Shown here piece after piece: positions 24,151-29,608 of a stretch of DNA of 38,133 bases. Made by a program: the position numbers and the translations under genes. Within the stretch, counting starts at the first letter, position 1, and every line of letters begins with the position of its first letter. Below the pieces are notes generated by a model, which worked only from the letters and a program-made list of their open reading frames with translations, did no database searches and was not told the DNA's origin. The stretch comes from Clostridia bacterium (GTDB lineage Bacteria > Bacillota > Peptococcia > DRI-13 > SV3-B141), in contig JAHDSB010000135.1 in NCBI GenBank assembly GCA_018433015.1, forward strand, positions 1 to 38,133, read 5' to 3'.

Positions 24151-24261
24151 AGTGTTTCATCTCCTATCATAGCTGTTGTCCTATTTCTACCTTCTCTCGT
24201 AATATACTAGAATTTTGGTTTTATTGCAATCGTGCAACCTAAGGTACTATATAGCTCAGAA

Positions 24262-24289
24262 AAAGGCCTGGATTTTCATCCAGGCCTTT
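24262..24289 (-). terminator. Terminator of the hydE-hydF-ABC transporter operon
   Basis: A perfect 12-bp stem, AAAGGCCTGGAT and its complement, has a TTTC loop and a T5 tract on the minus strand, about 30 bp beyond the lipoprotein stop. Confidence 0.92.
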
Positions 24290-24318
24290 CTGCTCTCACT
24301 TAGATCTTGAGGATTCCT

Positions 24319-25287
24319 TTATACGTCGGCAATAATACTTTTTATATCAATCTTTTTCGTCAACATCTCATTTTCTAAGAGAAAATCTTGAGTTTTTTCC
24401 AGTTCTTCAATATCTTTTTCCGTAATGGTTGGAGCAAAATTATACCACTGGTACATGGTCTTTACCTCATCCAAAGCTATATTAGTTTCTTCTGCTGCCA
24501 GTTTAAAGGTATCTTCCGGATTCTCGGCCATATATTTCAAACTGTTGTTGTGAACTTTCATATATCTTTTTACCAGCTCCGGATGCTCTCTGAAAAATTC
24601 GCCCCGTACCCCGATTACAATCGTAGCATCTAAAATACCTTCCCCGGTAGTAATGATCTGGGCGCCACCTTCTACGGCCTTGGTAACAGCAGGACCGGCT
24701 ACTAAGGCAGCATCGGCATTACCGCTCATCAAAGCCGCTACCCCCTCCGGTATACCCATATGAGTAAACTTTACATCTTCCACTTGCAAATCTTCCTGAG
24801 CCAGAGCCCCTAATAACAACTGATGAAGAATAGTGCCTTTAGGTCCCACAATGGTTTTTCCTTTAAGATCAGCAATAGTTTTAATACTGCTGTCGTTGAC
24901 CATAATGGTAAAGGCTTTGGGAGCGCGACTATATATGCCGATAATCTTCAAGTCCACTCCATTTGCGGCGGCCAGGATAGCGGAAGTGCCTCCTAAAGCA
25001 TTACAAAAATCCAAAGAACCCCCGGCAATGGCTTCCGTCATTTTAGGCCCTTGGGTTATTTCAGGGTAATTAATAGTTATATTGTCCTCAGAAAATTCCT
25101 CTTCAAAGAGATTCTTATTTTTTTCAATGATGGAAGGTACATTAAGAGGCAATTTAACATAAGAAATATTTATTTCTTCCACTTGCTCTTCTGGCTGCTC
25201 ATCCTGGGCACTGTTTGTGGAACCACAACCTCCTACCAGAGCTATTACCAGCAGTGCCGTTAGCAATAAGGCGATAAATTTTTTCAT
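24319..25287 (-). CDS. ABC transporter substrate-binding lipoprotein (SsuA/TauA/NMT1-like)
   Basis: A 322-aa lipoprotein with a signal peptide MKKFIALLLTALLVIALVGG and a lipobox Cys21. The mature part is a type II periplasmic-binding fold of the SsuA/THI5 kind, with ISYVKLPLNVPSIIEKNK, LKGKTIVGPKGTI and GNADAALVAGPA. Relatives bind sulfonates, taurine, nitrate or pyrimidine precursors of thiamine; this one cannot be assigned. I chose ATG 25287 because the ATG three codons upstream abuts the GGGGAGG ribosome binding site. It is the last gene of the operon behind permease and ATPase, an inverted order relative to many ssu operons. Confidence 0.9.
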   Translation of the reverse strand: MKKFIALLLTALLVIALVGGCGSTNSAQDEQPEEQVEEINISYVKLPLNVPSIIEKNKNLFEEEFSEDNITINYPEITQGPKMTEAIAGGSLDFCNALGGTSAILAAANGVDLKIIGIYSRAPKAFTIMVNDSSIKTIADLKGKTIVGPKGTILHQLLLGALAQEDLQVEDVKFTHMGIPEGVAALMSGNADAALVAGPAVTKAVEGGAQIITTGEGILDATIVIGVRGEFFREHPELVKRYMKVHNNSLKYMAENPEDTFKLAAEETNIALDEVKTMYQWYNFAPTITEKDIEELEKTQDFLLENEMLTKKIDIKSIIADV

Positions 25288-25314
25288 AAACTCCATCCTC
25301 CCCTTCTTTTTAAA

Positions 25315-26061
25315 TCAATCAGTTAATAATAGAGAAAGCAATTCTTCCCGCAAGGTAAAAAAGTTTTTATCTTTCATATTTCTGGGATAAGGTAATTCTA
25401 CAGGTATTTCCTGTAAAACTATGCCCTTTTCCAAAGCAACAATTTTATTGCCTAAAAGAATAGCTTCATCCACATCATGGGTAACAAAGATAACAGTTTT
25501 TTTGTTTTCCTGAAAAATCTGCAATAACTCCCTTTGCAACCTTTGCCTGTTAAAAGCATCTAAGGCCCCTAAGGGTTCATCCATCAAGATTAAATCCGGT
25601 TCATAACATAAGGTTCTTCCCAGGGCTACCCTTTGGGCCATACCTCCTGATATTTGCTCGGGATAAGCATCTTTAAATTTTGTTAAACCTAAGATCTGTA
25701 AGTACCTGCTTACCCTCTCCCGAACAACAGTCTTTTCTACATGATTTAGCAGGGAAAAACCCATGTTCTCTTGGACAGTTAACCAAGGCATCAATCTGGG
25801 CTCTTGAAACACAATGCTTATTCTAACTTGTTCCGCCGTTAAGAAGTTATTAGCTCTATTTACAAAACTAAGGGTACCTCCGGTTTTTTCTTCTAAGCCG
25901 CAGAGCACGCGCAACAGGGTAGTCTTACCGCAGCCGCTCTTGCCTACCACAGTTACGAAACTCCCCTCTTCTACAGCTAAATTTATTCCTGCTAAAGCTT
26001 TTACTTTTTGCCCCTGAATATCAAAGGTTTTGGTTAAATTTTTTATTATTACGCCCGCCAT
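25315..26061 (-). CDS. ABC transporter ATP-binding protein (SsuB/TauB-like)
   Basis: A 248-aa ATPase. Walker A is GKSGCGKT (40-47), the Q-loop is in VFQEPRLMPWL, the signature is ISGGMAQRVALGR, Walker B is LILMDEPLGALD and the H-loop is VTHDVDEA. The PRLMPWLTVQEN segment is typical of the nitrate/sulfonate/taurine group. It powers the transporter formed with the neighbouring permease and lipoprotein. Its ATG at 26061 lies 41 bp inside the permease gene, so translation is coupled. Confidence 0.94.
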   Translation of the reverse strand: MAGVIIKNLTKTFDIQGQKVKALAGINLAVEEGSFVTVVGKSGCGKTTLLRVLCGLEEKTGGTLSFVNRANNFLTAEQVRISIVFQEPRLMPWLTVQENMGFSLLNHVEKTVVRERVSRYLQILGLTKFKDAYPEQISGGMAQRVALGRTLCYEPDLILMDEPLGALDAFNRQRLQRELLQIFQENKKTVIFVTHDVDEAILLGNKIVALEKGIVLQEIPVELPYPRNMKDKNFFTLREELLSLLLTD

Positions 26062-26812
26062 TGTTTCCCTGCTCCCATCTCTTGTTAAACATTTTCCCCG
26101 TTAACCATAAAAAAAGGTAATCCAAGATAAAGCCCATGACACCGATGGTCAAGATTCCCACAATAATAATATCGGGTCGCGATAGTTGTTCCGCTTCTAT
26201 GATCATGTAACCTATACCGGCCGAGGCAGCTATCAATTCTGCACCAATTAAAGAGCGCCAACTATAACCCAGGCCCAATTGCATACCTACAATAATCTGG
26301 GGTACAGCCTGAGGTAGGATGATGCGCACCAGCTTCTCCTTTTCGGAAAAGTGAAAAACCGTCCCTACTTCCAGCAACTTCTTATCACAATTAACAATAG
26401 CGCTAACAGTGTTCAAGAAGACGGGAAAAAAGGTAGCTAAGAAGATCACCGCCAACTTAGCAGTTTCCCCAATACCGAACCATAAGATCAACATGGGTAT
26501 AAGAGCAATGGGAGGGATATGGCGAATAAACTCCAAAGTAGGTTCTAAAAATTGATAAACTCTTTTCTTCATACCTACAAAGACAGCCAAAGGAAAAGCC
26601 ACCAAAAAGGTTAGGGCAAAACCTACAAACACGCGATATAAACTAACGGTTAAATGCCGCCATAACACACCTTTCTTGACCATGACCATAGCTGTTTCAT
26701 AAACCCGCTCCGGAGCAGGTATGATATAGGCATTAAAGAGTTGGGCCTTAGAACCTGCCCACCACAACATCACTAAACAGGCAGGAAATAACAAGCCTTT
26801 CAATCTATGCAT
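26021..26812 (-). CDS. ABC transporter permease (SsuC/TauC-like)
   Basis: A 263-aa permease with about six membrane helices and the EAA-type loop (around FHFSEKEKLVRIILPQAVPQIIVG) that contacts the ATPase. Its family is the sulfonate/nitrate/taurine type. The ATG at 26812 stands 4 bp past the hydF stop, and its RBS (AGGTGA) overlaps that stop, so it is co-translated with hydF. The C-terminal tail (KRWEQGNNGGRNNKKFNQNL) overlaps the ATPase gene in another frame. Such a tight link between hydF and a transporter is not part of the usual hyd operon. Confidence 0.93.
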   Translation of the reverse strand: MHRLKGLLFPACLVMLWWAGSKAQLFNAYIIPAPERVYETAMVMVKKGVLWRHLTVSLYRVFVGFALTFLVAFPLAVFVGMKKRVYQFLEPTLEFIRHIPPIALIPMLILWFGIGETAKLAVIFLATFFPVFLNTVSAIVNCDKKLLEVGTVFHFSEKEKLVRIILPQAVPQIIVGMQLGLGYSWRSLIGAELIAASAGIGYMIIEAEQLSRPDIIIVGILTIGVMGFILDYLFLWLTGKMFNKRWEQGNNGGRNNKKFNQNL

Positions 26813-26816
26813 GGGA

Positions 26817-28004
26817 TCACCTCAGAATCTCTACAGCCCTATCTAAAATTCCTGTTAGATGAGCCAACAGCATGCCATAATTGGTTATAGGTACGTTATT
26901 CTCCTGACATATTTTAATCCGTGATTCCATGGACTTCCTATTCAACATACAGGAGGCACAATGAATCACCAGATCATATCCTTGCAAATCTGTGGGAAAA
27001 TCTTTACCGGTAGTAAATTCGTAGGTAAACTTTTTCCCGGTAAATTTGTTTAAGCCCCGGGGTATTTTCACCCTGCCAATGTCTTCATGGGTATGGTTGT
27101 GAGTACAACTTTCCGCCATTAAGATTTTGGCTCCCTCGGGTAAATTAGCAATAGCTTTAATACCTGCTAAAAATACTGAAATATCGCCCTTTACCCGGGA
27201 TAACAAAATGGAAAATGAAGTAAGTTTTATCTGGGGCGGTACAATCTGATTTACTTTTTTAAAGGCTTGGGAATCGGTAACTACCAGATCCACATCGGGC
27301 ATATCGGCTAAGGCCGAGGCCAATTCCGTATCACGCACTACATAACTTTTCAGCCCATTATCCAGACAATCTCTTATCAACTGAACCTGGGGAAGGATGA
27401 TCCTTCCTTTGGGGGCCTCCGAATCGATAGGTACAACCAAAATAACTTTACTATTGTAAGGTAAGAGATCTCCCACTAAAGGGATTTCTGCTTTTTTATC
27501 CTCAATTCTTTTTACTAATTCTTCTTTCAATTCTGCCATATGGGTATCGGCGGTAGAAGACACAAAAAAGGCAGTTTTCTCTTTTTCTTTCATTTTTTCC
27601 AGGCTTTCCGCGGAAACAGTATCGATCTTATTGATAACAGTTAAATAAGGAACATTAAACTTCTTAAAGTTTAATTTGGCTAAGTCATAAAATTCATCTT
27701 CCGGCTCATTAATATCTCTAACGTAGAGGGCAAAGTCCGTGCTCTGTAGCACTTGCAGACTTTTTTGCACCCGCAGTTGGCCCAGCTCTTGCTCGTCATC
27801 CAGCCCGGCTGTATCAATAAATAGCACCGGTCCTAGAGGAAGTAATTCCATGGCTTTTCGTACGGGATCTGTAGTCGTTCCTTTAACGGGGGATACAATA
27901 GCTACTTCTTGCCCTGTTAGGGCATTGAGCAAGGAAGATTTGCCTGCATTTCTTTTGCCGAAAATAGCAATATGTATTCTATTGGCATGGGGTGTACTAT
28001 TCAT
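26817..28004 (-). CDS. hydF: [FeFe]-hydrogenase H-cluster maturation GTPase HydF
   Basis: A 395-aa HydF. The GTPase domain has the P-loop GKRNAGKS (16-23), a G2 Thr in KGTTTDP, DTAGLDD and NKID. The C-terminal [4Fe-4S]/scaffold domain carries the ligand set Cys300-x-His302 ... His348-Cys349-x-x-Cys352. HydF holds the 2Fe precursor of the H-cluster and delivers it to apo-hydrogenase. The ATG has TAGGAG upstream, and the gene lies 14 bp after hydE. HydG and the hydrogenase itself are not in the window, so they must be encoded elsewhere. Confidence 0.96.
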   Translation of the reverse strand: MNSTPHANRIHIAIFGKRNAGKSSLLNALTGQEVAIVSPVKGTTTDPVRKAMELLPLGPVLFIDTAGLDDEQELGQLRVQKSLQVLQSTDFALYVRDINEPEDEFYDLAKLNFKKFNVPYLTVINKIDTVSAESLEKMKEKEKTAFFVSSTADTHMAELKEELVKRIEDKKAEIPLVGDLLPYNSKVILVVPIDSEAPKGRIILPQVQLIRDCLDNGLKSYVVRDTELASALADMPDVDLVVTDSQAFKKVNQIVPPQIKLTSFSILLSRVKGDISVFLAGIKAIANLPEGAKILMAESCTHNHTHEDIGRVKIPRGLNKFTGKKFTYEFTTGKDFPTDLQGYDLVIHCASCMLNRKSMESRIKICQENNVPITNYGMLLAHLTGILDRAVEILR

Positions 28005-28018
28005 AAGCCAACTCCTAT

Positions 28019-29083
28019 CTACTCCAATTTTGTTCTGCAGAAACTCTTATGGTCTCCTCTGCCTTTATCCACTTCATAACCGGCTTCCTCAATACATTTC
28101 TCTATACGAGCCAGCAGAAACTTGCTTTCGTCAGCGGATATTCTCCTTTGATATAGTTCATATTTTTTTCTTTCCTCTACCGGGGTCAGATTAGGCATTA
28201 CCACATTAGCTCCCGCTTGTAAGCCCCCTTTTAATCCTTGGGGAACCAGGACATTCAAAGCTGTGGTGGAGGGCAGCAATACATCGGGCAACAATAACCT
28301 GGTCAAGGCTAAACAAATCAAGGTCTGTTCCACGGAACCATTAGAATAATCTTTTAAAGGTGTATCGGGGTGTACTATTAAAGGGCCTATTCCTATCATG
28401 TGGGGTTTAAACTCTTTCAAATATACAAGATTTTCTGCCAAGATTTCCGAGGTTTGTCCCGGCAAGCCCACAATAAAGCCTGCCCCAGCCTGATACCCAA
28501 TGACCTTGATGTTTTCCAGGCATTCTCGTCTGTTTGCAAAGCTCATGCCGGGATGCAGTTTATCATACAGTTCTTTCGTAGCAGTTTCGTGCCGTAACAA
28601 AAAGCGATCTGCTCCCGCCTCATAATAGTTGCGATAAGAGCTATTACTTTTTTCTCCGATAGATAAAGTTACGGCCACATCAGGAAATTTTTGCTTTATC
28701 TCCCCGATAATATCTGTCAAAATTTCATCGGTGAAATAGTCATCTTCCCCACTCTGCAAAACAAAGGTTTTAAAACCCAACTCATATCCCTGATAACAAC
28801 AAGCTAAAATCTCCTCTTTAGTAAGCCTGAATCTACTTCTTTTAACGTTGGCACACCTCAGCCCGCAGTATTGGCAAGTCCTTTTGCAATAATTGGAGAA
28901 CTCAATCAGTCCTCGTAAGAAAACCTTGCTGCCATAGTTAGCTTTTCTTGTGGCATTTGCTAAATTAAAGAGCAATTCCATTTCTTCTTGCTTAATATGA
29001 TCCAGAATATATACTAATTCTTCCTTAGACAAGGTATTATCCTGATACAGGGTTGTGATAAGTTCTGCTACTTTAGTCTTCAT
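28019..29083 (-). CDS. hydE: [FeFe]-hydrogenase maturation radical SAM protein HydE
   Basis: A 354-aa radical SAM protein with the cluster motif CKRTCQYCG (Cys66, Cys70, Cys73) and the HydE signatures GLRCANVKRSRFRL, FVLQSGEDDYF and HTATKELYDKLHPG-like RHETATKELYDKLHPGMSF. It shares the biotin synthase/ThiH fold and takes part in building the 2Fe subcluster. I chose ATG 29083 (GGGAAG 7 nt upstream) over the TTG at 29098, which overlaps the RBS region. The tail GDHKSFCRTKLE is Cys-poor, so the second, dispensable [4Fe-4S] site of some HydE proteins appears absent. It sits between the TM1266-like gene and hydF. Confidence 0.95.
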   Translation of the reverse strand: MKTKVAELITTLYQDNTLSKEELVYILDHIKQEEMELLFNLANATRKANYGSKVFLRGLIEFSNYCKRTCQYCGLRCANVKRSRFRLTKEEILACCYQGYELGFKTFVLQSGEDDYFTDEILTDIIGEIKQKFPDVAVTLSIGEKSNSSYRNYYEAGADRFLLRHETATKELYDKLHPGMSFANRRECLENIKVIGYQAGAGFIVGLPGQTSEILAENLVYLKEFKPHMIGIGPLIVHPDTPLKDYSNGSVEQTLICLALTRLLLPDVLLPSTTALNVLVPQGLKGGLQAGANVVMPNLTPVEERKKYELYQRRISADESKFLLARIEKCIEEAGYEVDKGRGDHKSFCRTKLE

Positions 29084-29098
29084 AGCGCATCTTCCCAA

Positions 29099-29350
29099 CT
29101 ATACTTCTTTTTTGGAAATAGAAGTTTTTACTGTAACACCTTTGATATTGCCCAGTTTACCCGTAAGGCCGTTTATTTCATCCAGGGAACCTACTACCAC
29201 GATAGAAATAACAGATACTCCCGCTTCATCGTAAGGAATTCCCATCCTTCCTTTGATAATCCCTTTATAGCTGGAAACTATCTCATTAAATTTCCCCTGA
29301 CTTTCTTGGGGATTTTCCAGAACTGCACCTAACACTGCTATTTTCCTCAT
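29099..29350 (-). CDS. TM1266-type iron-only hydrogenase system regulator
   Basis: An 83-aa protein of the TM1266 family, small ferredoxin-fold ACT-like proteins encoded beside hydrogenase maturation genes. The sequence begins MRKIAVLGAVLENPQESQGK and contains GIIKGRMGIP and VVVGSLDEINGLTGKLG. I chose ATG 29350, which has AAGGTG upstream and matches family length; the longer frame to 29443 runs into the leader hairpin. It is thought to be regulatory, by analogy only. It is the first gene after the leader. Confidence 0.9.
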   Translation of the reverse strand: MRKIAVLGAVLENPQESQGKFNEIVSSYKGIIKGRMGIPYDEAGVSVISIVVVGSLDEINGLTGKLGNIKGVTVKTSISKKEV

Positions 29351-29404: not shown

Positions 29405-29440
29405 CTCAAAACAAAAAACTCTCCCTGCAGGAAAGTTTTT
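29405..29440 (-). terminator. Terminator-like hairpin in the leader of the hyd operon
   Basis: On the minus strand AAAAACTTTCC pairs with GGGAGAGTTTTT (one G-U) across a TGCA loop, followed by a T6-G-T4 tract. It lies about 60 bp upstream of the first gene of the operon and about 140-190 bp downstream of the promoter. It may be an attenuator. It could alternatively end read-through from the YbaK gene. Confidence 0.7.
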
Positions 29441-29574
29441 CAAAAGGTTGTGACACCCTGTATTAGCTATTTAAACTCATCCTTGCAGATCAGAATACTC
29501 TTTTCTGTGAGGTTTTCTGTTATATACTACACAAGTTATATAAGGTATTCCTCATATAACTGATTCACTCTTTC
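29441..29574 (-). ncRNA. Candidate regulatory 5' leader of the hyd operon
   Basis: The leader from the likely start point (about 29574) to the hairpin at 29440 is 134 nt and has no long ORF. Near its 5' end AGTTATATGAGG pairs with CCTTATATAACT (12 bp, one G-U, AATA loop; 29529-29556). A smaller CAGAA/TTCTG hairpin follows. It ends in a terminator-like hairpin. I compared it by eye with known riboswitch classes (T-box, TPP, c-di-GMP, preQ1, purine) and saw no match. It is a plausible unclassified attenuator. Confidence 0.4.
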
Positions 29575-29580
29575 ACATAA

Positions 29581-29608
29581 ATTCTATCATGGCTTGCTAA
29601 GATGTCAA
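29581..29608 (-). promoter_or_regulatory. Sigma-A-like promoter of the hyd operon
   Basis: On the minus strand TTGACA (29603-29608) and TAGAAT (29581-29586) are 16 bp apart, close to consensus. It lies between the YbaK stop (29639) and the leader. Confidence 0.75.

Follow-up and report, generated by a model that had tools for sequence, protein, structure and literature searches.

The ABC importer encoded directly after hydF in the maturation operon studied here has close relatives that adjoin [FeFe]-hydrogenase genes in members of Bacillota and Synergistota and in one spirochaete; most of them point the same way as those genes, and the number of distinct gene orders is eight or more. In the window, by which we mean the whole 38,133-nucleotide stretch of DNA that was analysed, the importer genes continue an array of TM1266, hydE and hydF (Table 1). 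The best explanation as a whole seems to be that a dedicated importer provides H-cluster assembly with a small solute, perhaps for the step carried out by HydE and HydF, and we give this reading a probability of about 0.5. Its parts differ in strength: a functional tie between the importer and [FeFe]-hydrogenase is highly probable, a role in assembly, as opposed to H2 metabolism in general, is close to an even call, and supply of the bridge step in particular is a tentative suggestion.

The six genes of the array lie tightly packed on the minus strand in the positions and order given by the first-pass annotation. HydE and HydF score above the curated cut-offs and their catalytic motifs are present, which identifies a [FeFe]-hydrogenase maturation operon: as read from the sequence, HydE carries the radical-SAM motif CKRTCQYC (CxxxCxxC), and HydF has both the P-loop GKRNAGKSS and the ligand set CTH...HCASC. 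A gap of 4 bp separates hydF from the permease gene, and the hydF stop codon TGA is contained in the ribosome-binding site of the latter, confirming an overlap proposed earlier. The ATPase gene starts within the end of the permease gene (41-bp overlap) and is followed after 18 bp by the lipoprotein gene, beyond which the terminator previously assigned to the end of the operon is indeed found. To judge from this layout, the six genes would be co-transcribed.

Table 1. Features of the hydE-hydF-importer operon in the window
Feature	Position	Strand	Evidence
TM1266-family putative regulator, 83 aa	29102..29350 (stop 29099-29101)	-	TIGR03959, 99.5 bits (cut-off 60.8); PF21699
hydE, radical-SAM H-cluster maturase	28019..29086	-	TIGR03956, 465 bits (cut-off 254.6)
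hydF, H-cluster maturation GTPase/scaffold	26817..28004	-	TIGR03918, 537 bits (cut-off 325.6); PF18128, PF18133
Permease ribosome-binding site GAGGTGA, overlapping hydF stop TGA	26816..26823	-	sequence reading
ABC permease, SsuC/TauC-like	26021..26812	-	PF00528; nearest models SsuC and TauC, each below its own cut-off
ABC ATPase	25315..26061	-	PF00005
Substrate-binding lipoprotein, SsuA superfamily	24319..25296	-	TIGR01728 (SsuA_fam), 194.9 bits (cut-off 163.5); lipobox-like LVGGC
Intrinsic terminator after the lipoprotein gene	24258..24290	-	fold -26.7 kcal/mol, z -6.1
Leader hairpin then U run, ca. 60 nt before TM1266, possible attenuator	29413..29441	-	hairpin alone z -1.4
Promoter-like site TTGACA-16-TAGAAT, TG before second hexamer	29581..29608	-	consensus match only (11/12)

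Importers 54-64% identical to that of the window were found across Bacillota and Synergistota. A single-sequence search of contigs with the substrate-binding lipoprotein (SBP) gave no matches; an alignment search recovered the relatives, and the maturase identities at linked loci were verified with curated models. All of the following arrangements run in one direction: permease-ATPase-SBP-(TM1266)-HydE-HydF at L145-L147, from three genomes that belong to a single family; HydE-HydG-HydF-permease-ATPase-TM1266-SBP in Peptoclostridium litorale (L159); permease-ATPase-SBP-HydF, then aspA (aspartate ammonia-lyase), in a Negativicutes MAG (L160); HydE-TM1266-HydF-(permease/ATPase)-SBP in a Lachnospiraceae MAG (L181); TM1266-permease-ATPase-SBP in Acidaminococcaceae (Acidaminococcus; L170, L171, L175); and permease-ATPase-SBP-(NuoF-like piece)-HydA in Brevinema (L180). 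In genomes G221 and G084 the importer adjoins [FeFe]-hydrogenase A6 genes. Overall, HydF is the most frequent partner. Since the importer lies beside hyd genes in many bacteria and in differing gene orders, its role probably lies in the assembly or use of hydrogenases. The first-pass annotation had suggested that the importer supplies something needed for hydrogenase assembly, or regulated with it, and that other genomes be searched for hydF beside this type of ABC system; the pairing does recur in several phyla and gene orders, so that the functional link is supported, while a role in supply keeps the rank of a proposal beside simple co-regulation. At L181 the permease and ATPase appear to be fused in a single frame of 540 aa (L181:7342-8961(+)).

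Among named loci, a hyd gene was located within 6 kb at 9 of 23 with at least 40% identity, while none of the 49 with less than 34% identity had one (Fisher p = 1e-5); the latter are an imperfect control in that some of their genomes may be without any hydrogenase. On a quick tree of the SBP the maturase-linked label changes six times, three of these changes being forced by well-supported branches. HydF was present in 32 of 40 genomes carrying the importer. For Pseudomonadota the figures were 4 of 7 carriers, Burkholderiales making up three of these four, and 0 of 199 other sampled genomes (p = 5e-7); for Bacillota, co-occurrence was not significant (8 of 10 carriers, with a background of 107 of 199).

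The SBP was found in 49 of 188 Synergistota genomes, and hyd genes lie within 6 kb at 23 of 51 importer loci of this phylum, on the same strand in 21 of those 23; if hyd genes are taken to occur by chance at 3% of loci, the binomial p is 8e-22, a value inflated by relatedness. The arrangements include HydA-HydG-permease-ATPase-SBP, HydF-HydE-permease-ATPase-SBP (L272) and HydF-permease-ATPase-SBP (L284), as well as TM1266-SBP-HydF, devoid of permease, at about twelve loci that are probably one lineage. Of the 20 TM1266-SBP-HydF genomes tested, 17 encode elsewhere a permease with 51-58% identity to that of Synergistota, and permease and ATPase genes without an SBP occupy a separate site in such genomes, as read gene by gene at four loci (L331, L332, L335 and L336). 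With the SBP placed between TM1266 and hydF, and the permease-ATPase pair elsewhere, it is the SBP that keeps its place beside hydF once the transporter has been split. All the SBPs with an intact N-terminus bear a signal peptide and should therefore act outside the membrane. The idea that stand-alone SBPs could be cytoplasmic maturases was discarded on account of these signal peptides and of the matching permease in most such genomes. Inspection by eye of the four SBP-less loci showed a metallo-beta-lactamase-fold protein of ca. 305 aa after the permease-ATPase pair, a possible clue that the solute gets hydrolysed.

In the prevailing view, H-cluster assembly draws on nothing beyond metabolites of the cytoplasm. 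That a conserved importer is found joined to the maturase genes time and again, and that its SBP remains with hydF even where the permease does not, points to an unrecognised input for this process. We propose that permease, ATPase and lipoprotein constitute a single ABC importer, a member of the SsuA superfamily with a function in [FeFe]-hydrogenase biogenesis. A small solute would be captured by the lipoprotein on the outer side of the membrane and carried inward by the importer, to be used with HydE and HydF; its likeliest role is that of a precursor or donor in H-cluster assembly, providing for example nitrogen, carbon or sulfur for the dithiomethylamine bridge. The six genes would share one transcript, probably under control of the leader or of TM1266. 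There is a precedent for finding such a donor from gene neighbourhoods: a survey around hydF led to ammonia-lyases, and assays showed that these (aspA) give ammonium/nitrogen for the HydF-dependent dithiomethylamine bridge (PMC11736057). That this precedent exists and that HydF is the commonest partner lead us to suggest that the importer may bring a precursor or donor for the HydE/HydF step. The word transport does not appear in the text of that survey of hydF/hydE neighbourhoods (PMC11736057), and our literature search found no publication describing a link between the importer and hydrogenase. In comparison with the Bacillota operons of the type TM1266-hydE-hydG-(aspA)-hydF, the window operon has the regulator and maturases in common and is likewise compact, but hydG is elsewhere and the importer is added. 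The identity of the SBP ligand would reveal the missing input of the pathway, and it also matters for making active [FeFe]-hydrogenases in foreign hosts.

A different reading, less probable and still of some weight, is that the imported solute is a growth substrate or electron acceptor of H2-linked metabolism, and that the importer is co-regulated with the hyd genes instead of feeding assembly. It would account for the members that adjoin structural [FeFe]-hydrogenase A6 operons (L151, L157 and L180), one of which (L151) is also, by eye, near a formate-dehydrogenase-like gene, and for those that have FmdE-like partners in genomes without HydF. It fits less well with the prevalence of assembly genes (TM1266, hydF and hydE) among the partners, in many cases with no hydA in the vicinity, or with an SBP that, once separated from its own permease, is still found with hydF.

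The carriers lacking HydF, the pairing with FmdE-like proteins and the non-significant co-occurrence in Bacillota all count against supply of H-cluster assembly as the best explanation. HydF is missing in 8 of the 40 carriers, among them Lactococcus reticulitermitis, Bosea, Allorhizobium and Leminorella. In members without nearby hyd genes the SBP is often followed by an FmdE-like protein, and FmdE-like and hyd genes were found at the same locus in 0 of 51 Synergistota loci (p = 0.012). This family of ca. 178 aa, whose resemblance to FmdE is weak and which has no Pfam or NCBIfam match above cut-off, follows the SBP at L141:929-1459(-), at L144, L163, L164, L169, L178, L182, L185, L186 and L187, and at seven Synergistota loci. 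A second partner, which we call mini-HydA, is encoded just upstream of the permease at L141:4029-4691(-), L174:6927-7541(+), L178:6845-7468(+) and L167:1-435(+). It is a protein of 205-221 aa similar to the C-terminal domain of the [FeFe]-hydrogenase large subunit and devoid of ferredoxin domains; cysteine occurs in each of the three H-cluster motif regions (RCP, TPC and YCxxGCxNGDG). It is present in L. reticulitermitis, a genome without HydF. In view of these partners and of the HydF-less carriers, the solute may have wider uses: either it serves more than one pathway or the importer family covers more than one solute. A bolder form of the proposal, which we regard as doubtful, would have a distinct subfamily of the SsuA fold act as a dedicated extracytoplasmic supply line through which the HydE/HydF step obtains a specific cofactor or building block, with the mini-HydA and FmdE-like partners as alternative users of the same solute. 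Other neighbours were observed once or twice, namely a guanine-deaminase-like gene directly after the SBP in a Selenomonadaceae MAG (L165:9951-11234(+)) and an MsnO8-family luciferase-like oxidoreductase after the importer in Allorhizobium and Bosea (L176:9881-10951(+) and L179:9934-10944(+)).

The importer had been described as SsuABC-type, which holds for family and fold and fails for the residues that contact the sulfonate. The model of the lipoprotein (pLDDT 91.7) has SsuA (Z 34) and TauA (Z 31) as its closest solved folds, well above the next group (ca. 26), and together with the SsuA_fam score above cut-off this would favour a true alkanesulfonate or taurine importer (SsuABC/TauABC) scavenging sulfur for iron-sulfur clusters. 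The residues of TauA that contact taurine have been defined, and loss of the hinge Glu106 abolishes binding in that protein (PMC6906117). In the importer subfamily, Gln30 of TauA is replaced by Val47 (invariant in 31 of 31), Glu106 by Phe129 (26 of 31), Trp176 by Ala200 and Asp205 by Ile226, so that neither the sulfonate/amine contacts of TauA (Gln30, Glu106 and Asp205) nor those of SsuA (Gln, Glu and Trp) are retained; the glycines providing backbone anion contacts, Gly83 and Gly102, are the only ones kept, and Pro50, Asn52 and Arg124 are newly conserved in the subfamily. Because the side chains that hold the sulfonate and amine are replaced, the ligand is probably not a classical alkanesulfonate, and SsuABC should be taken as a label of fold and family, not of substrate. 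What is shared with SsuABC/TauABC (SsuA superfamily, TIGR01728, NMT1-like) is thus the three-gene organisation, the SBP fold, the gene family and the two glycines, whereas the operon partners are hydrogenase maturases and not desulfonating oxygenases. No SsuD, SsuE or TauD gene is found among the operon members or flanking genes, and the Rhizobiales copies have beside them a monooxygenase that belongs to the MsnO8 family and is not SsuD. Sulfonate scavenging is, on these grounds, improbable.

All three components are detectably similar to SaoX, SaoP and SaoA (NF040735, NF040733 and NF040729), but their scores are far below the curated cut-offs (41 vs 300, 147 vs 295 and 206 vs 360), which places the importer outside that system. 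Rfam scans of the window and of 36 related loci found no known riboswitch upstream of the importer in its direction, neither the TPP element expected of a riboswitch-controlled thiamin/HMP-type importer nor any other. The riboswitches that were matched (TPP before thiD, FMN before ribD) do not govern the importer and were set aside as clues to the solute.

The about twelve Synergistota loci that keep just TM1266-SBP-HydF are what would be expected if the SBP acted chiefly as a sensor or reporter outside the cytoplasm, serving control by TM1266, with transport secondary; this we consider quite unlikely, as the window operon and the majority of linked operons include permease and ATPase, and the split genomes usually hold a matching permease elsewhere (17 of 20 tested).

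Regarding the origin of the importer, the HydF of the window is closest to those of same-order and same-class genomes (61-63% identity), whereas the best permease in the sampled same-order genomes is 36% identical and no close copy of the importer is found there. This gives the importer the look of an acquired or differentially retained element that was joined to vertically inherited hydEF, and its sequence comparison with these relatives suggests that it is probably a recent arrival. A chance co-location in the window genome, which such a recent arrival would permit, is very improbable given the recurrence in several phyla and gene orders. None of ca. 40 sampled HydF-bearing relatives has such an importer adjoining hydF; most bacteria with [FeFe]-hydrogenase lack it, so that it is not generally required, a further point against supply of H-cluster assembly. 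Searching relatives through hydF had suggested a pairing unique to the window genome, a view overturned by searching through the importer.

Control of the operon may also act at its front, as the leader (29413-29608(-)) combines a strong promoter match with a stable upstream hairpin and, before TM1266, a second, terminator-like hairpin with a U run. The 183-nt leader is more stable than shuffled sequences (z -3.4), the hairpin alone weakly so, and no Rfam family scored above threshold in it. This hairpin could be an attenuator, or else the transcript end of the upstream ybaK-like gene.

The absence of hydG pointed out in the first-pass annotation applies to the operon and not to the genome, where hydG is found on another contig (G000:C132:8389-9810; 464 bits, cut-off 312), and five HydA-like genes with a HydA domain are located on other contigs as well. 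This hydG (L075) is set apart from the other hyd genes; its neighbours, by eye, are a chemotaxis-receptor-like gene, an ABC transporter of the amino-acid type and two amidinotransferase/deiminase-like genes.
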